Source: a virus
Strand: one strand, 5' to 3'
Length of the DNA stretch: 23,422 nt
IMG/VR virus record: IMGVR_UViG_3300022592_000033
Location: 1 to 23,422 of that record
In this document: positions 2,483-23,422 of the stretch, piece by piece
How positions within the stretch are numbered: the first letter of the stretch is position 1
Layout: every line of letters starts with the position of its first letter
Program-made: the position numbers and the translations under genes
Notes under the pieces: generated by a model
What the model was told of the DNA's origin: nothing
Database searches by the model: none
What the model saw: the letters and a program-made list of their open reading frames with translations, nothing else

Positions 2483-2995
2483 ATGACAACTTATTATGTT
2501 TATCAACTTGTTGATCCAAGGACTGGATTACCTTTTTATATTGGAAAAGGTACAGGCAATCGTGCCTACCAGCATACCAAGTTTAAAGATGGTAATCAAA
2601 ATCCTTACAAAGAACGAAAAATAAAAAATATACTAAAGGCAGGTTTAGAACCAATGGTTGAATTTTTATATCAAGACATTATTAATGAAGAAGAAGCATA
2701 CAATTTAGAAAAGAAAATTATTCAAGAAATTGGTATTAAGAATCTAACTAATATCACCGAAGATAGACAACCACCAACTAAAAAAGGATGGAAGCCTACA
2801 GCAGAAACTCTTGCTAAAAGATCTGCTAGCCTCAAAGGATTACTAAGATCTGATGAGTGGCGTAAGAACTTATCTATCGGTCATACCGGAGAAAAAAATG
2901 GTATGTACGGACGTAAAAATTCTCCTGAAACATTAGAAAAAAAACGTAAAGCAATGAAAGAATTTTGGGCTAAGAAAAAAGCCCAAGTTGTTTAG
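2483..2995 (+). CDS. GIY-YIG homing endonuclease with NUMOD3-like DNA-binding repeats
   Basis: This is the only convincing plus-strand gene. From ATG 2483 the 170-residue product begins with TTYYVYQLV, then FYIGKGTGNRAYQH: the GIY-like and YIG elements with the following Arg. The likely catalytic Glu is in AYNLEKKII. The C-terminal half has short basic NUMOD3-like repeats (TAETLAKRSASLKG; GEKNGMYGRKNSPETLEKKR), which place such enzymes on DNA. In-frame starts at 2450 (TTG), 2456 and 2459 exist, with GGAG at 2452-2455. I chose 2483 because family members start just before the Y-x-Y strand. Its last 26 bases overlap the 3' end of uvsE on the other strand. It is a mobile gene that cleaves a target lacking it; the target is not known. 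Confidence 0.85.
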   Translation: MTTYYVYQLVDPRTGLPFYIGKGTGNRAYQHTKFKDGNQNPYKERKIKNILKAGLEPMVEFLYQDIINEEEAYNLEKKIIQEIGIKNLTNITEDRQPPTKKGWKPTAETLAKRSASLKGLLRSDEWRKNLSIGHTGEKNGMYGRKNSPETLEKKRKAMKEFWAKKKAQVV

Positions 2996-4016
2996 CTTCT
3001 TTGTATAAAGCAAATGATGCTAAGTTTTTACCTTTGGCCTCAACTTGTATATCGGCCCATTCAGAATGGGTAAGTGCCCAATTATTACTAGCTTTGTTCC
3101 ACATAAAATCACTATGTGCTCGCAATTTTTGTTTCTTATAACCACTTTCTAGTAAAGTAGCCATATCCGGTGCCACTAATGGATCATGTCCCGTAAGTAC
3201 GTCTTCGCGACTGCAAGAATAATGAATGACAGGACGAGTGCCCCGCCAGCTATCGATAATTCTTCGAATACGCTCATCGTTGACAGATATGTATTCTCCT
3301 TCGCGTATGAGGTGATGATGAATATCAAGCACAATAGGAACAATATCAGTAATGGTAAGACAATCATTTAACCCCCATGAGTTTTCTTCGTTTTCGATAG
3401 TAATACAGTTTCTTGCTTCTGGCGATAGTCGTCGGTACGCACTTCGGATACCGGCTGGACCTTCTCTACCGGAGATGTGGACGTTAATCTTAAAGTCCTG
3501 AAAGGATAGGCCGTAACCCATCCAACGGGCCATATTCGCATGATATTCAAACTCCTCTAATGAACGTTCTACAATGCCTGGGTTACTACTAGCAAGAACC
3601 GTAAATTGCCCAGGATGAAAACTAAGTCTGACACCGCTATTGCGAGCAATATCACCCACTCTTTTGAACGCGGTTTCGGCGTATGATACAACGTCAGGTT
3701 GACGCCAATAATCAGCAAAAGACTCGTGAGTGTAGCAAGGCAAAATGTCGCTAGAAAGCCTAACCATCCTAAGGCTAGGATCAAGTGTGGAGACACGCTC
3801 TACTAACTTTCTTGTTGATTCTATATTTGCCGACATTAAATCCCATAACTTTTGCTCCGCTAAGTCTCTTGTTTGTCTATTTAGCCAAGCAACTGTAGTA
3901 GTACCGGTGTTGTATTGTTTAGCGTCGTCGGTGGATTTAATACCTTCAGTCTGATCTGGGCGATCAATCCACTTACAGCAAAAACCAATTCGTTTAGTGT
4001 ATGCTTGGATTTTCAT
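2970..4016 (-). CDS. uvsE: UV damage endonuclease, UvsE/UvdE family (348 aa)
   Basis: This TIM-barrel endonuclease nicks DNA 5' of UV photoproducts and so starts alternative excision repair. The start at 4016 (MKIQAYTKRIGFCCKW) fits the family. Visible motifs are RLSSD (86-90), HPGQF (134-138), the IENEE strand (207-211), DIHHH (231-235), HSDFMW (301-306) and EAKGKNLA (326-333). The His, Asp and Glu residues in these are the expected metal ligands, and the Lys in EAKGK is well placed to be conserved. GGGAG lies just before ATG. The start lies 23 bases inside the upstream 92-aa gene, so translation is probably coupled. The 3' end overlaps the opposing homing endonuclease gene by 26 bases. T4 itself uses the unrelated DenV glycosylase for this job. 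Confidence 0.9.
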   Translation of the reverse strand: MKIQAYTKRIGFCCKWIDRPDQTEGIKSTDDAKQYNTGTTTVAWLNRQTRDLAEQKLWDLMSANIESTRKLVERVSTLDPSLRMVRLSSDILPCYTHESFADYWRQPDVVSYAETAFKRVGDIARNSGVRLSFHPGQFTVLASSNPGIVERSLEEFEYHANMARWMGYGLSFQDFKINVHISGREGPAGIRSAYRRLSPEARNCITIENEENSWGLNDCLTITDIVPIVLDIHHHLIREGEYISVNDERIRRIIDSWRGTRPVIHYSCSREDVLTGHDPLVAPDMATLLESGYKKQKLRAHSDFMWNKASNNWALTHSEWADIQVEAKGKNLASFALYKEAKQLGLFS

Positions 4017-4272
4017 ACTCCCAATATGTATTACCACGTGCTTCTGCGGTCTTGATAGCTTCTTCAAAACCCTCGTCAACATAGTGCATATCAATTGCTA
4101 CGTCTAGAGCTTTTAAGATAGCCACTCCAATTTCATGTTGATCAGTATCTAACATGTCCTGGCCGATAGTACTTAAACTTTCAACTACAGCATCTAGTTC
4201 TTCGGCCGAAAGTTCTTTGACTTTAACACGATCTTCTAAGATGTCTTCAACTAACAATTCAGCATCAATCAT
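3994..4272 (-). CDS. Hypothetical acidic 92-aa protein
   Basis: I do not recognise this protein. It is acidic and apparently all helical (MIDAELLVEDILEDRVKV, then ELSAEELDAVVESLSTI), with no Cys pairs, signal peptide or membrane segment. The ATG overlaps the preceding stop as ATGA (4269-4272), and GGAG lies 6 bases before it inside the upstream gene, so it is translationally coupled. Its last 23 bases overlap the start of uvsE. It belongs to a run of small genes of the sort phages use early in infection; no function can be assigned. Confidence 0.75.
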   Translation of the reverse strand: MIDAELLVEDILEDRVKVKELSAEELDAVVESLSTIGQDMLDTDQHEIGVAILKALDVAIDMHYVDEGFEEAIKTAEARGNTYWEYENPSIH

Positions 4273-6216: not shown

Positions 6217-6820
6217 GATTGGCTCCTAGACGTTTAATATACTTAGCTACTTGTTTTTCTAATTGTAACATAACTTTACGATCTTGCCTAAAATTTCGGC
6301 GATACATTCTGTATACCTTTGTCAAGACCATATGTCGATCGTACACTATCATTTCGCTGGCAATGTTAAATGCGTAGGCCAGTATTTCATCTTCGCAACC
6401 AAGATAGTCCTTCATTGTGTCATTGTATCGTAAATTGTTTTTATCTCGGTATCCACGACCATGCTTATATCCACGACGCCGGCAATAATATCGATGTAGG
6501 TATTCGTGAGTGATTGTGTCTGCAAGATGGAAACTCATCCGATCCCAGTCATAATCACTGAAACTGACCCATCGACAGCGTGAACCAAATGTCAAGGTAA
6601 CATAAACACAGGGATCGTCTTGACTATCGTCGTAAGGACGATATTCAGCAGTTATCCAAAAGTTTTTCTTTGATAGTTCAGAGTCACGTACACAATTAAA
6701 TCGCAACTGCGGGTCACGAAACTGCATACGGATTAAATGTGTAAAGCTCTCGGGGGTATAAGTCTTCGGCCCGTGTTTTACAGGAAGTTTTTTTATACGC
6801 TCGAGAGTTTCAAAAAACAT
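6185..6820 (-). CDS. Putative zinc metallopeptidase with HEYLH motif (211 aa)
   Basis: Residues 105-109 read HEYLH in a helix (ADTITHEYLHRYY), the HExxH zinc site of gluzincin-like peptidases: two His ligands and the catalytic Glu106. A downstream helix with CEDEILAYAFNIASEM offers Glu143 or Glu145 as the third ligand. Basic and aromatic residues flank the site (RRRGYKHGRGYRDKN), and the C-terminal 40 residues are basic and helical. There is no signal peptide, so it acts in the cytoplasm or virion. It begins one base inside the stop of the cell-wall hydrolase gene (TAATG), so the two are coupled. Substrate unknown; removal of a host factor is possible. Confidence 0.65.
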   Translation of the reverse strand: MFFETLERIKKLPVKHGPKTYTPESFTHLIRMQFRDPQLRFNCVRDSELSKKNFWITAEYRPYDDSQDDPCVYVTLTFGSRCRWVSFSDYDWDRMSFHLADTITHEYLHRYYCRRRGYKHGRGYRDKNNLRYNDTMKDYLGCEDEILAYAFNIASEMIVYDRHMVLTKVYRMYRRNFRQDRKVMLQLEKQVAKYIKRLGANHEQVVRRVSI

Positions 6821-7524
6821 TACAAACGACCGGACCTTTCTTTAAAGAAAACGTGTCCGCCTACTTGAGCCACTACGGGTTTTCCCCATTGTGGGTGTAT
6901 ATAAACAGCATGAAAGTACAGAGCATCTCTGTACTTTTTTTGCCATTCAGTGTATTCGCCCTGCAATAATCTCTCAGCGACTGCCTGACTGTCTTCCCAG
7001 TGTTGATTTTTCAACTTGGGTACACGAGCCAAAGCACATTTCCAGCTAAACTGGCATACTGTTACTTTTTGACTGATCAACTTGGTTTCAGTATGTGGGA
7101 TCTGTTCCCCAACAATGTTACGAACCATCTTAGTTACTGTAACTTCTCGAATACGTTCTGTTACAGTTTTTTGATCTACTACTGAACAAATTGAACTACC
7201 AAAACGTCCATCACGAACACGGTTAATGGTAACCATTGCTACCGCTACTTTCCCTTCCAAGGGCTCACTGCCAGCTTCGTAATAGATATTGTGTGCCAGG
7301 CAATCTACATCTTTTGAATTGTAGTTGATATCCAAAATAGGATCGATCAATACCTGCACTAAATTGTCAAAACGCTCTCGCGTTTGATATTTGATTGTGT
7401 CAACCATTCCTGGCGACAACTGTGCTACTTGTAATACTTGTACTTCTTCTGCATGACCGGGTGCCATTACGGTCAGGGCTGATATTGCTACTATGACTGA
7501 AACTACTTGAGCCAAAGTTCTCAT
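6820..7524 (-). CDS. SleB/CwlJ-type cell wall hydrolase with signal peptide (234 aa)
   Basis: This belongs to the Hydrolase_2 family, which cleaves peptidoglycan. A Sec signal peptide is clear (basic start, VVSVIVAISALTVM core, GHA cleavage site near residue 25). The conserved core is DCLAHNIYYEAG (74-85) with catalytic Glu83, then VAMVTINRV (95-103), SICSVV (111-116), CQFSW (157-161), ALYFHA (201-206) and GHVFF (223-227). About 35 extra residues lie between SVVDQ and CQFSW, which normally nearly adjoin. AAGGAGG precedes ATG with 7-base spacing. It likely works in the periplasm as an exported endolysin, or loosens the wall locally. It leads an operon with the HEYLH protein. Confidence 0.85.
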   Translation of the reverse strand: MRTLAQVVSVIVAISALTVMAPGHAEEVQVLQVAQLSPGMVDTIKYQTRERFDNLVQVLIDPILDINYNSKDVDCLAHNIYYEAGSEPLEGKVAVAMVTINRVRDGRFGSSICSVVDQKTVTERIREVTVTKMVRNIVGEQIPHTETKLISQKVTVCQFSWKCALARVPKLKNQHWEDSQAVAERLLQGEYTEWQKKYRDALYFHAVYIHPQWGKPVVAQVGGHVFFKERSGRL

Positions 7525-9506: not shown

Positions 9507-9824
9507 TTATTCCCCGACTAAGACTGTTGTGGCAGCAACAATTTCCATATGGTGTAGTCCACAGGAACAAAAACTACCAAATCTAGCCAACGGTTTTCCT
9601 TCAACTAATACCGTAGTTGATCCATCAATAATCACAGCAGCGGCACAAGGAGGATTAAATCCTGGTGCTTTTGGATTAAATGGATTGCCATGTATAGTTA
9701 CAGGGCTACCTACCGTCAGCGCCGGACGTCCCTGGATTAAAACTGTCGGGGAGATAGATTGTCCTACTCCCGGCGGTCCAAATAAGGTGTTGGTTAAATC
9801 TCCCTGAGTTGCCGCAAATGCCAT
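9507..9824 (-). CDS. PAAR-motif spike tip protein (105 aa)
   Basis: Short Gly/Pro/Val strands repeat as in PAAR proteins, which cap the membrane-piercing spike of contractile tails (T4 gp5.4). Visible are the GDL start, the segment VLIQGRPALTVGSPVTIHGN, and VLVEGKPLARFGSFCSCGLH near the end. Cys60, Cys86, Cys88, His91 and His92 (with His45) can bind the metal at the tip. At 105 residues it is full length for the family. ATG follows directly on the stop of the upstream gene (TAAATG). A TATAAATAC late box lies about 125 bases upstream, inside that gene. The 612-aa structural gene follows after one base. Confidence 0.85.
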   Translation of the reverse strand: MAFAATQGDLTNTLFGPPGVGQSISPTVLIQGRPALTVGSPVTIHGNPFNPKAPGFNPPCAAAVIIDGSTTVLVEGKPLARFGSFCSCGLHHMEIVAATTVLVGE

Positions 9825-10377: not shown

Positions 10378-11478
10378 TTATAAACTTGGTAATGCGTCGT
10401 AGTCAATGGCATCACTCATAACGCCGATAACATACGATGTACTTTCCGATTCTTGTAATGCTGTTTGCTTCTTACTAGTATCTGTGTGCTTGTTAAACCA
10501 TGGAATAGGTGTTGTCTTAGGTGCCAATGCCTGATACTTAATGCCAATATCTTTTAATGCGCCAACGGCAGTATAATCAACAAAATCTTTAAGAATTGCA
10601 GCGTTTAAACCAATAACCGGGCCCTTCTGGAATAGATAATCAGCCCAGGCCTTCTCTTCACGTATAACGTCCATGTAGAGTTGATATACTTCTGCTTCGC
10701 ACTCTGCTTTAATATCAGCAAACCGGCTGTCTTCTTTGATTACTTGATTGATCAAGTAAGCAGTCCAACCTTTGTGTAGTAACTCGTCTTGTAGGATTAG
10801 GCTGATGATATTACCGTTACCCATAAAGATACGATTCTCAACCATTGCTAAACTAGTAGCAAAGCTCACCATGAATCTGAATGCTTCTAGTGCATAGCTG
10901 GCGTGTAAGGCCATCCAGATAGCCTTGATGTGATCACGTTCTTTAATTGTTTCGCCTAATTCTTTACGACAATTAATTTTGTGTAGGGCATCATAGTAAT
11001 TGCCAACAGTACTTGCCATATCAACAATTTGTTGTGTGTCGTGTATTGTGTTAAACACATCTTTAGGTACATTATAAATGTTACGAATAATGTGACTATA
11101 TGAACGGCTATGAATATTCGTTTCAAAGAAAGTCCAGTTATAGATAAGTGCTTCTAGTTCTGGTAATGATACTACCGGCATAAACACTTGACTCGGGGCA
11201 CGACCTTGTAAACTATCTAGTGCTGTTTGGCGTAGTAAATTACTTGTAAAGATATGCTTAACTGCATCTGACGCATCTTTAAAGTCGTTGGCATCTTTAG
11301 TAAGACTAATCTCTTCTGGTTGCCAAAAGAATCCACGGGCCGTAGATTCAAAGTCTGCAATCTTTTTGTACTTAACTTCTTCAAAACGTTGAATAGTTAC
11401 AGGACCTGCTGGATCAAGAAACATCTTACGATTAAGATAATCTGTTTTAGTGTTTAGGTCGTATTGTGCTTTACTCAT
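10378..11478 (-). CDS. nrdB: Ribonucleotide reductase class Ia small subunit NrdB
   Basis: This subunit makes the diiron-tyrosyl radical used by NrdA to turn NDPs into dNDPs. At 366 residues it is near the E. coli length (375). Candidate metal ligands are Asp88 (LDSLQGR), Glu119 and His123 (FFETNIHSRSY), Glu198 (ALEAFRF), and Glu232 and His235 (QDELLH). Tyr127 is the radical site, Trp52 and the tail Tyr349 (TSYVIG) the radical path. The helix with Glu119 has E-x3-H where E. coli and T4 have E-x2-H (SETIHSRSY), a one-residue insertion. It starts as ATGA inside the end of the 98-aa gene and is followed by glutaredoxin. Confidence 0.95.
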   Translation of the reverse strand: MSKAQYDLNTKTDYLNRKMFLDPAGPVTIQRFEEVKYKKIADFESTARGFFWQPEEISLTKDANDFKDASDAVKHIFTSNLLRQTALDSLQGRAPSQVFMPVVSLPELEALIYNWTFFETNIHSRSYSHIIRNIYNVPKDVFNTIHDTQQIVDMASTVGNYYDALHKINCRKELGETIKERDHIKAIWMALHASYALEAFRFMVSFATSLAMVENRIFMGNGNIISLILQDELLHKGWTAYLINQVIKEDSRFADIKAECEAEVYQLYMDVIREEKAWADYLFQKGPVIGLNAAILKDFVDYTAVGALKDIGIKYQALAPKTTPIPWFNKHTDTSKKQTALQESESTSYVIGVMSDAIDYDALPSL

Positions 11479-11771
11479 AATTTATCTTCTTCTTTCACTA
11501 ATTCTATAAGCATACGATACTTACTGTATGCGTCAGCGACTGCTGGGTATTTCTCTCTTAACTTGTATTCTTCTTCACCATCTTGAATAGTCATACACTT
11601 AATCCAGTCTGCCTCGTAGGAGGTTTCGATACCATCTTTTCTTGTAACAGCGTTAGTCCATCGTGCTCGGTGTGCCGCGTTGTGTAATCGAGCAAATCCT
11701 TCTCGCATCGGCTCATTCAACTTTCTTGTATCTAATATATACACAGGAGCATTTAAATCGTAATCACTCAT
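11475..11771 (-). CDS. Hypothetical 98-aa protein between nrdA and nrdB
   Basis: I do not recognise this protein. It is charged and mostly helical (REGFARLHNAAHRARWTNAV, then ALREKYPAVADAYSKYRMLI-like helix). It has one Cys (IKCMTI) and an acidic end (KEEDKL). It overlaps nrdB by ATGA and the HNH gene by 8 bases, so it is probably made together with the reductase. No classical ribosome site is seen; AAGAAAC precedes ATG. A role tied to dNTP synthesis is possible by position only. Confidence 0.75.
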   Translation of the reverse strand: MSDYDLNAPVYILDTRKLNEPMREGFARLHNAAHRARWTNAVTRKDGIETSYEADWIKCMTIQDGEEEYKLREKYPAVADAYSKYRMLIELVKEEDKL

Positions 11772-12498
11772 ACTGTTTCTTTTTCATCTTACATCTATCA
11801 AAATGGAACCGCTTCATTGCTGGTCCTCTGCCTTCTTTATTACAATGCGGACATACATAATCATATTTTTTAACACCAGCCAACCGACTTGTTCTTGGAG
11901 GCATAGATTCTACATAATCGTATCTAATCTGCTTGCCCTTACAATGCGTAAACTTTCCTTCTGCGGTTAGTTTAACATTAATTGGAGTCGAGCCAATAGC
12001 GTCGGCACACTCAGTTAGTGTTCTAAACTCTTTTTCAAACTTACCATCGATGCCATAAACATACACTCTTACCCCTACTGCTTCTGTCATTGATGCTTTG
12101 CTTGTTGCCGCAATTTGCTTCTTTGTTTCTTCTGTATGTGTTTTATCTTTCATACCTTTAGGATGCCCAAATTCTTTTTGATACGCTTTCATTTGGACAG
12201 ACATTGATTCTCCCATACGCCTACGCAACCATCCAAATAACTTATTATTAACTCTGCGGTCTGTTTGATGTAGTGTCATTAATTGTGTTGCGTAAACTAA
12301 ATCTCTATTCCCTGGATACATCTTAACTAACAGCTGGTGAGCAACAAAATGTTCCTCTGCTGTTAGCACAGCAATATTACTTTTGTCATTTGTTCCGCCT
12401 AAACAACGCGGAATAATATGATGCCGTTCTTTGTAGCCTTCTAATACTCTTGATTGACTGCGTTCTATTAATCTATTGTAGTGTAAACTGTAGTTCAT
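11764..12498 (-). CDS. HNH homing endonuclease between nrdA and nrdB (244 aa)
   Basis: The start at 12498 (MNYSLHYNRLIERSQSRVLE) matches the usual opening of phage HNH homing enzymes; a longer frame begins with TTG. The HNH core is YKERHHIIPRCLGGTNDKSN (22-41), with His26/His27 and Asn41, then LTAEEHFVAHQLL containing His50 and His54. Residues about 140-190 look like a NUMOD1-type DNA-binding helix-turn-helix (FRTLTECADAIGSTPINVKL). The C-terminus has a C2HC zinc finger (Cys216, Cys219, His232, Cys236). The site between nrdA and nrdB is the place where T4 carries mobE. An AATAAATA late box ends 5 bases before ATG. It is selfish rather than part of the reductase. Confidence 0.9.
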   Translation of the reverse strand: MNYSLHYNRLIERSQSRVLEGYKERHHIIPRCLGGTNDKSNIAVLTAEEHFVAHQLLVKMYPGNRDLVYATQLMTLHQTDRRVNNKLFGWLRRRMGESMSVQMKAYQKEFGHPKGMKDKTHTEETKKQIAATSKASMTEAVGVRVYVYGIDGKFEKEFRTLTECADAIGSTPINVKLTAEGKFTHCKGKQIRYDYVESMPPRTSRLAGVKKYDYVCPHCNKEGRGPAMKRFHFDRCKMKKKQYE

Positions 12499-12502
12499 AA
12501 TA

Positions 12503-12511
12503 CTATTTATT
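12503..12511 (-). promoter_or_regulatory. T4-type late promoter box (AATAAATAG) before the HNH gene
   Basis: The minus strand reads AATAAATAG in the 39 bases between the nrdA stop and the HNH start. The expected transcription start is the A of ATG, so the mRNA may be leaderless. Confidence 0.45.
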
Positions 12512-12537
12512 ATTCTCTTATGATTACCCAATATTTT

Positions 12538-14862
12538 CTAGAGCTTACAAGATTCGCAGTCGGCCTCCTCATCAAAATCTATTGCTTCTAATTTGCCTGC
12601 ATCTATTGCTTCATCAATACCTTTACTACCTTGCTTATTGATTAATGAGTAATACAGAGTTTTTCCGCCCCAACGCAAAAAGTTCATCAAGTTTTTAGCA
12701 ATTAAAGTAGTCGGGACTTTTCTATCAGCAAAATGAGCTGGGTTATAAAAAGTATTAGTTGAAATAGACTGATCCACATACACTTGTATCACCGCGGCAG
12801 TTTTTAAATATCCTACACAGTCTTTCTGTTCCCACATTAATTGATACTTATTTTTTAGTTTAGCGTATTCAGGTACTACCTGCGTTAGGCTTCCTGCTTT
12901 TGATTCTTTGGTACTGATCAGGCTCATTGGCATTTCAATGCCGTTGGTACTATTGATTACAACACTAGAACTTTCAACTGGGGCAACTGCCATTAGGGTC
13001 GCATTACGCACACCATATTGTTTCATGTTGGTTCTTAGTGTTTCCCAATCAAGCTCGGGTTCAAAGTTAGCCAATTCGTTCACTGCTCGAGCACGAAGTT
13101 CCCAAGGAAATACGCCTTGACCGTAGCGTGTTTTTTCACTGTCTAAACAGGGACCTCTTTCTCGCGCTAATTCTACTGTGGCTTCTGTTAGATAAAATGC
13201 TTGATGTTCCATCCAGGATTTAACATCTTGTAGTGCATCTTTGTCACCGTATTTGAGTCCACGCTTGGCATGCCAGTAGGCCAGGTTAGTAATGCCGATA
13301 CCTAAGGGCTGTATTTCATCGTTGCTTAATTTAGACTGGATGGAAAGAAAGTCTTGATAGTCAAGAATATTACACAGGCTACGCTGGAGTATGCGACAAG
13401 CGCGACGCATATCTTCCGGGTTACGGAAAGCTCCCCAATTGATGGAACCCAGTGTACAAAGAGCGATACGGCCATCGCTGTCATCCAGACGTTTAAAGGG
13501 TTTAGTAGGTAAAAGTATTTCACAGCATAAATTTGACTGATAGATAGTGTGGTATTCAGGGTCAAATGGTCCTTGGTTCATTACATTATCAATAAACACC
13601 AGGTAGATACGACCCGTATCAGTTCTCTCCTTAAGTATACCACCTTTGAATACTTCCTCGGCTGACATTACCTTTTTACGTATGTTAGTTTTCTTTTCAT
13701 ACTTGACATACAGTTCTTCAAACAAGGCTGTGTTATTATAAAACGCTTCATACAGGTCGGGTACTTCGTTAGGATCAAAAAATGTTATGTTTTCTTTGTT
13801 CTTAAATCGGCGCCAAAATAGGGCATTAAGGACCACACCATAATCCATGTGTCTAACACGAGTTTCATCTGTTCCTTGATTATTTTTAAGCACAATGAGA
13901 TCGTCGAACTGATGATGCCAGATAGGATAAAATACGGTAGCACTTGCATTGCGAATACCTCCTTGACTACAGCTTCTTAAATCTCCAAACCACTTCTTTA
14001 GGAATGGGATCATGCCGGTGTGCATGATCTCGCCACCACGGATAGGACTACCTAGAGGACGTAAGCGACCAATCTCTAAGCCAATGCCAGCACGTTTGCT
14101 GGCATACTTGGCCATCATCTCCCCAGAAGCAAATATGCTATCCAGATCGTCGTCACTGCGGATAAGAACACAACTAGAAAACTGCTTAGTTGGAGTCCCA
14201 AGCCCAGCCAAGACAGGTGTAGCAAGAGTAAATAGACCATCTGACGCCGCGTTGTAATACTCCTTGATGTAACGCATACGGGCTGAGTTAGGTTCTTCTT
14301 GATGGAATACAGTAGCGGCCGCAATAATATACCTAATCTGTGGCGTCTCATAGATCTCTTTCGTAGCGCGATTGCGTACAAGATACTTCTCAATAAGTTG
14401 TTCAATTGCTGCATAGCTATATCCTTCATCTTTGTCATGGTCAAGCATATCATTCATCTTGTTCCAGTCGTCTTCGGTATACCATTCAAGAAGTTCAGCT
14501 GTATATAAACCTGTGGCTACGTTTGTCTTTACGATATCGTACAGGCGAGGAGGCTCATATGTGCCATACACATCCTTACGTAACATTGACAAACGTTGTT
14601 TGCCTGCTACGTATTGATAGTTAACGTGTCCAACATCGGGATTTGCTTCTACGTCGATTAAGTCCACAATCGCTCGTAATGTTATTTCGTCTATTTCTTG
14701 TGTTGTAATACCGTCAAAGAAGTGTGGTTGACTTTTGATTTCAATCATACTCTGACTTACATCTGCTATACCTGCACAAACCTTAGTAATCTGGGCTTGC
14801 CACTTCTCTACTGCTAACGGCTCTTTGTGTCCGCTTCTTTTTGTGACTTGAATTGTCGTCAT
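12538..14862 (-). CDS. nrdA: Ribonucleotide reductase class Ia large subunit NrdA
   Basis: The catalytic subunit, 774 residues, reduces NDPs to dNDPs. The N-terminal 95 residues form an ATP-cone (VTKRSGHKEPLAVEKW) for dATP control. Active-site residues visible are Cys231 (FSSCVLI), Asn444, Cys446 and Glu448 (SNLCCEIL), Cys469 (ALCTLGSINW), and Tyr737-Tyr738 (KTLYYS) on the radical path. The tail CESCKL (Cys769, Cys772) hands electrons from glutaredoxin. The gene is intact, with no intron or split. It starts 11 bases after the 149-aa gene, with AGAAGAG as a modest ribosome site. It is separated from nrdB by the HNH gene and a 98-aa gene. Confidence 0.97.
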   Translation of the reverse strand: MTTIQVTKRSGHKEPLAVEKWQAQITKVCAGIADVSQSMIEIKSQPHFFDGITTQEIDEITLRAIVDLIDVEANPDVGHVNYQYVAGKQRLSMLRKDVYGTYEPPRLYDIVKTNVATGLYTAELLEWYTEDDWNKMNDMLDHDKDEGYSYAAIEQLIEKYLVRNRATKEIYETPQIRYIIAAATVFHQEEPNSARMRYIKEYYNAASDGLFTLATPVLAGLGTPTKQFSSCVLIRSDDDLDSIFASGEMMAKYASKRAGIGLEIGRLRPLGSPIRGGEIMHTGMIPFLKKWFGDLRSCSQGGIRNASATVFYPIWHHQFDDLIVLKNNQGTDETRVRHMDYGVVLNALFWRRFKNKENITFFDPNEVPDLYEAFYNNTALFEELYVKYEKKTNIRKKVMSAEEVFKGGILKERTDTGRIYLVFIDNVMNQGPFDPEYHTIYQSNLCCEILLPTKPFKRLDDSDGRIALCTLGSINWGAFRNPEDMRRACRILQRSLCNILDYQDFLSIQSKLSNDEIQPLGIGITNLAYWHAKRGLKYGDKDALQDVKSWMEHQAFYLTEATVELARERGPCLDSEKTRYGQGVFPWELRARAVNELANFEPELDWETLRTNMKQYGVRNATLMAVAPVESSSVVINSTNGIEMPMSLISTKESKAGSLTQVVPEYAKLKNKYQLMWEQKDCVGYLKTAAVIQVYVDQSISTNTFYNPAHFADRKVPTTLIAKNLMNFLRWGGKTLYYSLINKQGSKGIDEAIDAGKLEAIDFDEEADCESCKL

Positions 14863-18776: not shown

Positions 18777-19199
18777 TTACTTCTGAGCGGCTCGTTTAGC
18801 CATACTGCTTACTACTTTGGCAGGATCACCGGGTGTCGCACCTTGTGCCCCAAGCGGATCCGAATTGTCAACGGTATTTTCTGGTAATGCCAGATAGATG
18901 TATTTGGCTCCAGTTTTTTCGTCGTCTTTGATATCTTTAATTAAGCTCTTAACTACATCGTTGTGTTCGTTTGCAGCTTCTAAGGCAGCATAGTTAAACG
19001 CTTCGTTGCCAGGAATAGCCCGGACCCGATCAATTACAGTATCTACCTTAACACGTGGAGTTACTGCTGAACTTTGTTGTGCTTCGTTACGTAACCATTC
19101 TAACGCAGTGATTAAAGCAGAGTCACCACGTGTCTCTGCTTCATCTTCAATTGCTTCAAATTCTATTTCGGATTCAAGAATGATATCGCGTATACGCAT
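18777..19199 (-). CDS. Putative virion-associated protein (140 aa)
   Basis: The protein starts MRIRDIILESEIEFEAIEDE. The I-I-L-E/S pattern near residue 9 looks like a prohead protease site of the (L/I)-x-E kind, so the start could act as a capsid-targeting peptide. The rest is helical and acidic, then Ala/Lys-rich at the C-terminus (PAKVVSSMAKRAAQK). A GAQGATPGD piece is collagen-like by chance. The ATG shares one base with the stop of the upstream structural-type gene (TAATG). Head or internal protein is inferred from neighbours and N-terminus. Confidence 0.65.
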   Translation of the reverse strand: MRIRDIILESEIEFEAIEDEAETRGDSALITALEWLRNEAQQSSAVTPRVKVDTVIDRVRAIPGNEAFNYAALEAANEHNDVVKSLIKDIKDDEKTGAKYIYLALPENTVDNSDPLGAQGATPGDPAKVVSSMAKRAAQK

Positions 19200-19900
19200 T
19201 AACGACGCTCTCGTCCAAGTTCTTCTTCACCGCCAACAGCGGCATCAGTAGCATCAAAACCGTCGGCTTCTGGAGGAGCACCTAGGTCGCTATCCATATC
19301 GCTTTCGCTGCCGTCCACTGGAGGTAAGTTGTCACCTAGTCCAGCGCCGCCGCTCATGTCCATACCTGTGTCAGCAATTTGCTCTCCGCTTAACACACGA
19401 ACTGCTGTGTCGCTTGTTTCACGTGCTGTGCTTAATGCTGTGTATAGTTCTGTTAATGTTGGGCTGATAGAACCTTTGAATGATTCGGCCTGTTCACTGC
19501 CAATTTGGTCGCGGATCGTATCAATAAGTGCTGGAACTTGTTCGTTCTGTACTTTAGAGATCTTCTCTAGCATGTCCTGAATACTGTCAACAATGTCTTT
19601 AGCGGCTAATACTGCTTCGCTACGACCCATTTCAGATTCGAACAAACCTTGCTCGGAGCCCATCCATTTGTCTAGGCCTTCCTTAACAAGCATAAGTTCC
19701 ATATACTTGCTATTCTTTTCAGCAGTATGACTGCCAAAAGATTTTTTAATAGCCACAATATTTTCACCCAATGCTTGGCTTAAGCGTTGTGCTTTAGCAT
19801 AAGTTAAATTATCATAATCAATACTAAAACCAAAGCGGCTTTCGACGATTTTGTTAATCTTTTGTGGTGTTACTTCGGTACGCATTTCAGAGAGTCTCAT
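19199..19900 (-). CDS. Putative virion structural/head core protein (233 aa)
   Basis: The start at 19900 (MRLSEMRTEVTPQKINKIVE) is chosen because the longer frame opens with TTG. The first 90 residues look conserved and helical (YAKAQRLSQALGENIVAIKK; HTAEKNSKYMELMLVKEGLD), a pattern I associate with head proteins of T4-like phages without a sure name. A long helical middle follows (VDSIQDMLEKISKVQNEQVP) and an acidic, Gly/Asp-rich tail (SESDMDSDLGAPPEADGFDA), as in scaffolding or core proteins. A perfect TATAAATA late box lies 26 bases before ATG. It is coupled to the 140-aa gene by TAATG. Confidence 0.65.
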   Translation of the reverse strand: MRLSEMRTEVTPQKINKIVESRFGFSIDYDNLTYAKAQRLSQALGENIVAIKKSFGSHTAEKNSKYMELMLVKEGLDKWMGSEQGLFESEMGRSEAVLAAKDIVDSIQDMLEKISKVQNEQVPALIDTIRDQIGSEQAESFKGSISPTLTELYTALSTARETSDTAVRVLSGEQIADTGMDMSGGAGLGDNLPPVDGSESDMDSDLGAPPEADGFDATDAAVGGEEELGRERR

Positions 19901-19926
19901 TTTGTTTATTCCCAAACTTATATTAA

Positions 19927-21968: not shown

Positions 21969-23054
21969 TTATTTTGAGAATAATGCCGCACTAAAAGTGC
22001 CACGATTTACTAGTTTAACCAGGCCTGTTGGGGTATTAAACACAAACCCTTCCCCGGCAGGTTTACCGTTAACTGATTGTTGTATTCCCTGTACTTGTTT
22101 TTCTAGCTGGTCAGCTAGATTTACTTTTAAAGCATAGATAGAGTTCCATATTGTAAACAAGCCATTAAGACCTTTTTGTTCTCTATACAAATAACCGCCC
22201 ATGTTTTCTCCTACTAGTTGTTTGTATTGCTTGGCACTGACATTAGTTTGTAGCCAATCAATTAGTTTTTCGTTAGTTTGTCCAGTAATACGTTTATTCA
22301 TATACTTTTGTAATGCTTGACGCACTACACCTGGTAAACCAGTTAAGAATTTATCTGCTACTGTGCTGTACTGATTGACAGCGGATGTTGCGGCTTTGGT
22401 TAATTGTACAGGATCATTTAATTTAAACTCAAGACCGGCGCCGGGTGTTAGTATTACAACGGCACCGTCGGTTTTTAATCCTTGACCGTTCCACTGTGCT
22501 GGACGTGCATGAGAGTCGGCAAAATATTGGTGTACTACAACGCCGCCAACACTACGACCAATTTGTTGGCCTAGGGTTGATTTAGCTGGAACATGATATT
22601 CTACTACATTAGGTTTGAATGCGTACATTCCGTTTTTTGGTTTTAATTGCTGCCACCAAAGCAAATCACCCCAAAAGAAACCTGTACTAGATCCTACCGC
22701 GGATTCTAGTCCGGCCCAAATGTTTGTTAACTTAGCATACAAGTCAGGACGTAGTTTACCGCTGGCCTTTTTACTGTCGTACTCTTGCCATTTAGCTGGA
22801 CTGTCTGCAAAGAACTTAGCATCAAACATATACTTGTCTTGTACAGTAAAACGACCATCTGGCATACGTCCAAATATCAATGCTGGAAAACCGTCCCACT
22901 TAATTGTGACCGAGCCAGGATTTTTAATAACATACATCAAACTTTCTAATGCGGCTCGTGCGGCACCACCACCATCAAATATTGAGTCCTCTGGATGTGG
23001 TTGTGCTCCAGTGCGAGCTTCTATTAGGATGTTATTAATAAAATCTAATTTCAT
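21969..23054 (-). CDS. Ligase/nucleotidyltransferase-like protein with capsid-targeting-type N-terminus (361 aa)
   Basis: The N-terminus MKLDFINNILIEARTG resembles T4 internal-protein targeting peptides (MKTYQEFIAEA), with LIE/A as a prohead protease-type site after residue 12. VTIKWDGFPALIFGR holds Lys52-x-Asp-Gly, motif I of the covalent nucleotidyltransferases (ligases, capping enzymes). FFWGDLLW (126-133) fits motif III. Motif IV and V candidates are EGFVF (335-339) with Lys347 in LVKLVN, or DGAVVIL (196-202) with Lys211 in FKLND. An AMP-linked ligase fold is inferred; the acceptor is unknown. The ATG overlaps the previous gene by ATGA. No late box is seen directly before it, so it is read with the gene upstream. 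Confidence 0.65.
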   Translation of the reverse strand: MKLDFINNILIEARTGAQPHPEDSIFDGGGAARAALESLMYVIKNPGSVTIKWDGFPALIFGRMPDGRFTVQDKYMFDAKFFADSPAKWQEYDSKKASGKLRPDLYAKLTNIWAGLESAVGSSTGFFWGDLLWWQQLKPKNGMYAFKPNVVEYHVPAKSTLGQQIGRSVGGVVVHQYFADSHARPAQWNGQGLKTDGAVVILTPGAGLEFKLNDPVQLTKAATSAVNQYSTVADKFLTGLPGVVRQALQKYMNKRITGQTNEKLIDWLQTNVSAKQYKQLVGENMGGYLYREQKGLNGLFTIWNSIYALKVNLADQLEKQVQGIQQSVNGKPAGEGFVFNTPTGLVKLVNRGTFSAALFSK

Positions 23055-23422
23055 ACCACATGGCCCATCTTACGGAACCAAGCGGCTGTTCCTGGTGCTA
23101 CATCTTCAGGAAGTGTTAGTAACCCCTTGGCTTGGTCTTGCTTGGCCTGCGCCAACTTACCTTCGCGGTCGGGGTCACCTTCTAATGCTTTTAATACAGT
23201 TGATACTGAGTTTAAATCTGCTGCATGTGCGCCCGGGTTCAATAGTATTTTTGCTGCTGCTTCACGGGTGTCTGCAATCACGGAGTTATCATCCCGGCGC
23301 ATTACTGTACCGCCAAATGCATCTACTTTAACGCCTAAGAACTTACCAATACTGTTTAATAAAATGTACAACTGTGCCGCTTTAAATTTTGGATCATCAT
23401 AACTGCCACGCGGTCCATGTTG
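23051..23422 (-). CDS. Hypothetical protein, 5' end beyond window
   Basis: The frame is open from the right edge to the stop at 23051, with no in-frame ATG, so the start is outside. The visible 123 residues include a short helical N-part (KFKAAQLYILLNSIGKFLGV), then DAFGGTVMRRDDNSVIADTR and an Ala/Lys/Glu-rich helix (REGKLAQAKQDQAKGLLTLP), ending AAWFRKMGHVV. No family recognised. It is coupled to the ligase-like gene by ATGA, which suggests a shared role, perhaps a virion or internal protein. Confidence 0.7.
   Translation of the reverse strand, partial: QHGPRGSYDDPKFKAAQLYILLNSIGKFLGVKVDAFGGTVMRRDDNSVIADTREAAAKILLNPGAHAADLNSVSTVLKALEGDPDREGKLAQAKQDQAKGLLTLPEDVAPGTAAWFRKMGHVV

Follow-up and report, generated by a model that had tools for sequence, protein, structure and literature searches.

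The internal proteins and the Alt protein of phage T4 bear a short N-terminal leader ending in (L/I)xE↓A, a type of site at which the classic P1' residue is alanine, serine or glycine, and Alt itself carries an ADP-ribosyltransferase domain. Known ligases, among them NgrRnl, TbREL1 and the ATP-dependent DNA ligases, have a nucleotidyltransferase fold with motifs I, III, IV and V in a common order. A ligase accompanied by a small polymerase-type enzyme is found in African swine fever virus, a DNA virus with a minimal PolX fold and a DNA ligase, and in jumbo phages, where the excerpted account of RNA ligase and RlaP pairs (a ligase fold beside a pol-beta-fold enzyme) mentions no packaging leader (PMC7824862). 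Ten residues of the T4 IPIII peptide are enough for packaging (PMC9026906). According to a review, cyanomyoviruses are without the T4 g30 DNA ligase, provided that no distant homologue has escaped detection (PMC2984593).

The locus described here lies in the window, by which we mean the whole 23,422-nucleotide stretch analysed (positions 1 to 23,422 of IMG/VR virus record IMGVR_UViG_3300022592_000033; Table 1). A Pfam search places its focal protein in DUF6267 (PF19782); the protein also belongs to phrog_455, both families being annotated without a function, and T4-GC 71 of the cyanomyoviruses is the same family. The family has members in 386 phage records, almost all from T4-like cyanophages, and in many uncultured viral contigs. 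An NCBIfam search of the protein gave no match, a DNA-level search of the window against phage records and a related-loci search started from the Vibrio-phage DUF6267 member found nothing, and none of the papers covered by a text search for DUF6267 mentions it. We propose, at what we judge to be an even chance, that the protein and its neighbour form a packaged and injected gap-filling and sealing repair pair, made up of a DUF6267 ligase-like enzyme with a T4-type leader trimmed in the prohead and a PolX-like partner; DUF6267 may be a new family of ligase-like proteins that here bears a packaging tag and is partnered by a polymerase.

Table 1. Coordinates and strand of the locus, its motifs and other genes in the window.
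Feature	Position	Strand	Remarks
Preceding gene (PolX-like partner), C-terminal 123 aa, cut by window end	23051..23422	-	4-base overlap with ligase-like gene
DUF6267 (PF19782) ligase-like protein, 361 aa	21969..23054	-	ATG start; Pfam E 6.5e-30; predicted ligase fold
Leader, residues 1-12 (MKLDFINNILIE), candidate capsid-targeting peptide with putative prohead-protease site LIE↓A	23019..23054	-	disordered; conserved [LI]xE
Motif I, K52-W-D-G, candidate AMP-accepting lysine	22890..22901	-	invariant, 75 homologues
Motif III acid D130 (G129-D130-L-L)	22665..22667	-	invariant; in strand 125-133 of the model
Helical insertion, residues 216-318, between motifs III and IV	22101..22409	-	model secondary structure
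Motif IV, E335-G336	22047..22052	-	invariant
Motif V, K347 (KLVNR; second lysine of usual KxK is Val)	22014..22016	-	K347 and V349 invariant
Counterpart of protein L007:11186-11905 of the 354-kb relative	19199..19915	-	by position and start
Small protein with similar leader MRIRDIILE↓S, possibly a further packaged protein	18777..19199	-	354-kb relative starts MRIKEIIFES
Class I ribonucleotide reductase small and large subunits, HNH-endonuclease-like ORF between	10378..14862	-	glutaredoxin adjoins the small subunit
PAAR-motif spike-like protein	9507..9824	-	
Cell-wall hydrolase	6820..7524	-	PF07486
UvdE-type UV-damage endonuclease	2970..4094	-	PF03851, E 3.8e-39

A sequence-only reading of this gene had named K52-W-D54-G55, G129-D130, E335-G-F-V-F and K347 as ligase-superfamily motifs and E12↓A13 as a leader cleavage site, and all of these residues are present. 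Seven of them (K52, D54, G55, D130, E335, G336 and K347) are the same in all 75 homologues, whose identity spans 22-82%, a constancy that sets them beyond chance; Lys52, which that reading expected at the AMP pocket, is lost in none, and the seven are still invariant when cyanophage, Vibrio-phage and Methylophilales-phage members are added to the alignment. Motif V is unusual in that its second lysine is replaced by valine in every homologue, with R351 following in 73 of 75. In an AlphaFold2 model built from the homologue alignment (mean pLDDT 90, pTM 0.85) the residues fall at superfamily positions: Lys52 just after a strand, Asp130 inside its strand, Glu335-Gly336 preceding strand 337-341 and Lys347 in strand 344-348, with no further domain after motif V.

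Foldseek with this model gave weak matches, the best being human DNA ligase 1 (E 0.2). All 50 matches listed by VIA-align are RNA or DNA ligases, led by the Naegleria RNA ligase (Z 7.8 over 186 residues) and the Trypanosoma brucei RNA editing ligase TbREL1 (Z 7.3), followed by archaeal and human DNA ligases (Z 6-6.8); values of Z < 8 lie in the range where unrelated matches occur, and the slight lead of the RNA over the DNA ligases is within the range of a tie. Judging from the aligned ranges (361 with 339 residues), K347 falls within one residue of Naegleria K326 and E335 within one of E312, the residues named as mutated in the Naegleria structure entries. Despite the low Z, chance is hard to invoke when every listed match comes from a single superfamily and the catalytic residues are both invariant and in superfamily order, and the ligase fold expected by the sequence-only reading is recovered in the predicted structure.

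Searches by sequence gave no such result: phmmer and profile searches of solved structures found no ligase, hhalign against the T4 Rnl2 family reached a probability of 1% only, and DUF6267 was the sole credible Pfam match, with none to PF01068 (ATP-dependent DNA ligase) or PF09414 (Rnl2-type). Since sequence profiles do not reach the known ligases, the ligase link rests on fold and motifs, by which DUF6267 looks like a divergent nucleic-acid ligase-like protein of the polynucleotide-ligase superfamily. It shares the predicted fold and motif order with the known ligases and differs from them in having Asp for Glu in motif III, in lacking the second motif V lysine and any domain after that motif, in having some 100 helical residues inserted ahead of motif IV, and in the lack of detectable sequence similarity.

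The preceding gene bears on which nucleic acid such an enzyme would act on. Its fragment in the window is 81% identical over 123 aa to a full-length counterpart (L007:7231-8001), and G47-S48, D57, D59 and D120 are invariant in 22 sequences (a GS..GDxD..D pattern). No Pfam match was obtained, PolX included, and PolX was not found from the partner sequence without the fold. The predicted structure (pLDDT 80) covers the PolX palm and C-terminal domain: Foldseek returned 135 matches at E <= 1e-3, the best being Pol lambda (E 5e-6) and the 50 listed all Pol lambda, and VIA-align matched AsfvPolX with Z 10.2 over 158/177 residues. The gene order runs helicase, 82-aa protein, tagged variable protein, PolX-like, ligase-like. 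A search started from the partner gene alone gave 63 loci with 1 kb or more of sequence downstream; 62 of these have DUF6267 downstream on the same strand, the sole exception having only 1064 bases. At more distant DUF6267 loci other proteins with a GS..GDIDI pattern occupy the same place. The partner thus looks like a small family-X-like polymerase, translationally coupled to the ligase-like gene; this PolX-like partner and its coupling to DUF6267 are new here.

On one contig (L066, identical to L383) the PolX-like and DUF6267 domains are joined in a single 616-aa ORF (L066:5254-7104), which keeps a leader-like segment, KFDFVKSLKE↓D, at the junction. Other flagged PolX-DUF6267 fusions, except L383, were rejected as overlaps of stop-to-stop frames. 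The PolX-like proteins themselves start MYLYE↓GGN or similar with the Glu invariant (e.g. L007:7231), which is too short for the usual leader. The pair resembles that of African swine fever virus in joining a minimal PolX fold to a ligase in a DNA virus; it differs in belonging to a tailed phage with a T4-type head, in using a different ligase family, and in that its genes are neighbours or fused.

The main rival reading is a packaged RNA-repair pair, which would mend and rejoin tRNAs or other RNAs after cleavage by host defence nucleases, the role proposed for the RNA ligase and RlaP pairs of jumbo phages. RNA ligases head the fold list, and the jumbo-phage pairs, with a ligase fold beside a pol-beta-fold enzyme as here, have been described (PMC7824862). 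The closest folds among the 50 VIA-align matches listed are indeed nick-sealing RNA ligases, and a 354-kb relative already has a DNA ligase, so that a second one would be less needed. Several features of the locus nevertheless point away from RNA, and we consider RNA repair rather unlikely: the partner fits a template-dependent PolX with palm and C-terminal domain, comparison with Pfam RlaP gave nothing at E <= 1 (although divergent proteins can be missed), the locus lies directly behind the replicative helicase, and the operon showed neither a kinase nor a phosphatase that would act on RNA ends. The window also encodes a UvdE-type UV-damage endonuclease that could feed the same repair path. 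With the PolX fold and the place behind the helicase, it favours DNA as the substrate of the repair pair we propose.

The second element of that pair is the leader. In the window protein (MKLDFINNILIEA) it belongs to a stretch, residues 1-16, that is disordered in the model (pLDDT < 50), and a leader is also present in the DUF6267 protein of the Melnitz-type Methylophilales phage (MLTLINFSKYITED). Several cyanophage homologues start right at the core (HLEHxED), which makes the leader an add-on. By itself [LI]xE in one protein is a weak signal, being found within residues 4-16 in 11.7% of the proteins of the 354-kb relative. In DUF6267, however, [LI]xE stands directly before the core in 68 of 68 distinct leaders (a 69th row, the leaderless P-HM1 start, was left out), and likewise in all 36 distinct leaders at loci found from the neighbouring gene, about 20 of which were not in the first set; the leaders share descent, so the 68 are not independent observations. 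Their sequence varies, as does their length, with the site after residue 9 to 15, and the next residue is A, D, V, E or S. Aspartate, valine or glutamate occupies P1' in about 40% of leaders, a departure from the classic A/S/G. Two family leaders, MKTYTEYLVEA (L392) and MKTYTDYLVEA, closely recall the T4 IPII/IPIII start MKTYQEFIAEA.

The machinery for such a leader is present in the 354-kb relative (the window is a 23-kb fragment only), which encodes a gp21-type prohead protease (PF03420, E 4.8e-26) and a gp22-like scaffold, and whose gp23 shows KMLAE↓N in place of the FLTE↓A of T4. Across this genome as a whole the strict leader pattern is only mildly enriched (5/56 against 1.1 expected, P 0.006). 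The leader conservation and the protease bear out what had been read from the single sequence, a capsid-targeting leader of T4 type ending in an (L/I)xE site, and make the window-protein leader a candidate T4-type capsid-targeting peptide. The likeness to the T4 internal proteins and Alt lies in this leader; the cargo differs in its predicted ligase fold, and the packaging of DUF6267 is a prediction. We know of no mass spectrometry for any leader-bearing DUF6267 protein.

Other genes of the operon in relatives start with peptides of the same kind (MKINEVIVEA, MKIRDIILEG, MRINSILSEN). One protein of the 354-kb relative, L007:11186-11905, which has a counterpart in the window, matches phrog_14154, a virion structural protein (E 8.9e-13). 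In cyanophage S-SM1 the T4-GC190 gene (L321:28257-29420), a cytidylyltransferase-like protein of the HIGH type that begins MKKFSAFLNEA, overlaps the end of DUF6267, and its product was detected in purified virions by mass spectrometry (PMC3037559). The leaderless DUF6267 protein of S-SM1 (T4-GC 71) is annotated only as hypothetical, in line with its missing leader. A protein tagged MKIRDIILEG↓GWDTTLTQGT stands between the PolX-like and ligase-like genes at some loci (L014:6988-8004, L010:7039-8004, L029:856-1872, L026:5841-6950); its YGDIDL...VQVDFM pattern is suggestive of another pol-beta-fold enzyme, and two such proteins searched in Pfam gave no match. The gene after the helicase can likewise carry a packaging-type leader (L058:3447-5999, MKVNDILVED; L361:1078-3504, MRINSILSEN), and its product, whose length ranges between about 140 and 850 aa, resembles an internal head protein that changes fast.

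These neighbours weigh against the simpler view of an ordinary, unpackaged replication or repair ligase whose leader would be a docking peptide, for instance for the helicase or clamp, ending in LxE by chance. That view draws on the conserved place beside a gp41-like helicase in distant phages, on the cyanophage forms without a leader, and on the cyanomyoviruses without a known DNA ligase (PMC2984593). We find it quite unlikely, since [LI]xE is kept before the core everywhere although leader sequence and length vary, and since leaders of this type also occur on unrelated neighbours, the S-SM1 one being a virion protein. The leader evidence would serve equally well for an injected effector acting on a host target by nucleotidylation or ligation. 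The sequence-only reading had spoken of a new kind of early weapon, comparable in delivery to T4 Alt. The comparison stands for the proposed delivery and fails for the chemistry, the window protein having the ligase-superfamily fold and motifs instead of the ADP-ribosyltransferase domain of Alt. The weapon itself is less likely than repair, given the PolX-like coupling and the place behind the replicative helicase; such an injected effector appears very improbable beside strict coupling to a repair-polymerase-like gene, location in a replication cluster, and a family kept across hundreds of cyanophages, unlike fast-changing effectors.

The KxDG, D, EG and K residues are invariant across the wider DUF6267 family, from which the window lineage differs by its added leader and PolX-like partner. 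Cyanophage DUF6267 proteins have no leader and are paired with a HIGH-type cytidylyltransferase-like domain, both being in one protein in S-PM2. The position behind the replicative helicase, conserved in distant phages, is found in the cyanophages too: DUF6267 lies in the gp43-uvsX-gp41 cluster in P-HM1, syn9 and S-PM2. In Melnitz-2 it lies beside recA and the helicase. None of these four phages gave a match to PF01068 or PF01653, and all four carry DUF6267. The 354-kb relative and the Vibrio phage encode a separate PF01068 DNA ligase, for which reason DUF6267 was rejected as their sole DNA ligase; there it would be an extra enzyme dedicated to repair. We suggest tentatively, as a possibility less likely than not, that freshwater and marine T4-like phages package and inject a DNA repair kit of PolX-like polymerase and ligase together with further tagged proteins of nucleotidyltransferase fold, and that the leaderless cyanophage form is the missing DNA ligase of the cyanomyovirus replisome.

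In the repair pair that we favour, the leader would put the ligase-like enzyme into the prohead core, a gp21-type protease would trim it after E12, and the trimmed enzyme would stay in the mature head and enter the cell with the injected DNA. There Lys52 would take up AMP and pass it to a 5'-phosphate; the polymerase would fill a gap and the ligase-like enzyme would seal the remaining nick. The incoming genome would in this way be repaired, whether of light damage, packaging nicks or host cuts, before phage gene expression.

Several hundred sequenced cyanomyoviruses and many freshwater phages carry DUF6267, which has had no assigned function. If it is a ligase, the stated gap in the cyanomyoviruses (PMC2984593) would have an answer open to testing. 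A leader ending in (L/I)xE is suggested as a general rule for spotting packaged enzymes in uncultured T4-like phages. As a gene resembling a repair polymerase adjoins a tagged ligase-like gene, phages may inject a repair kit; if the tagged form is injected, these phages would bring repair enzymes with their genome, and early infection under light or nuclease attack would have to be reread.
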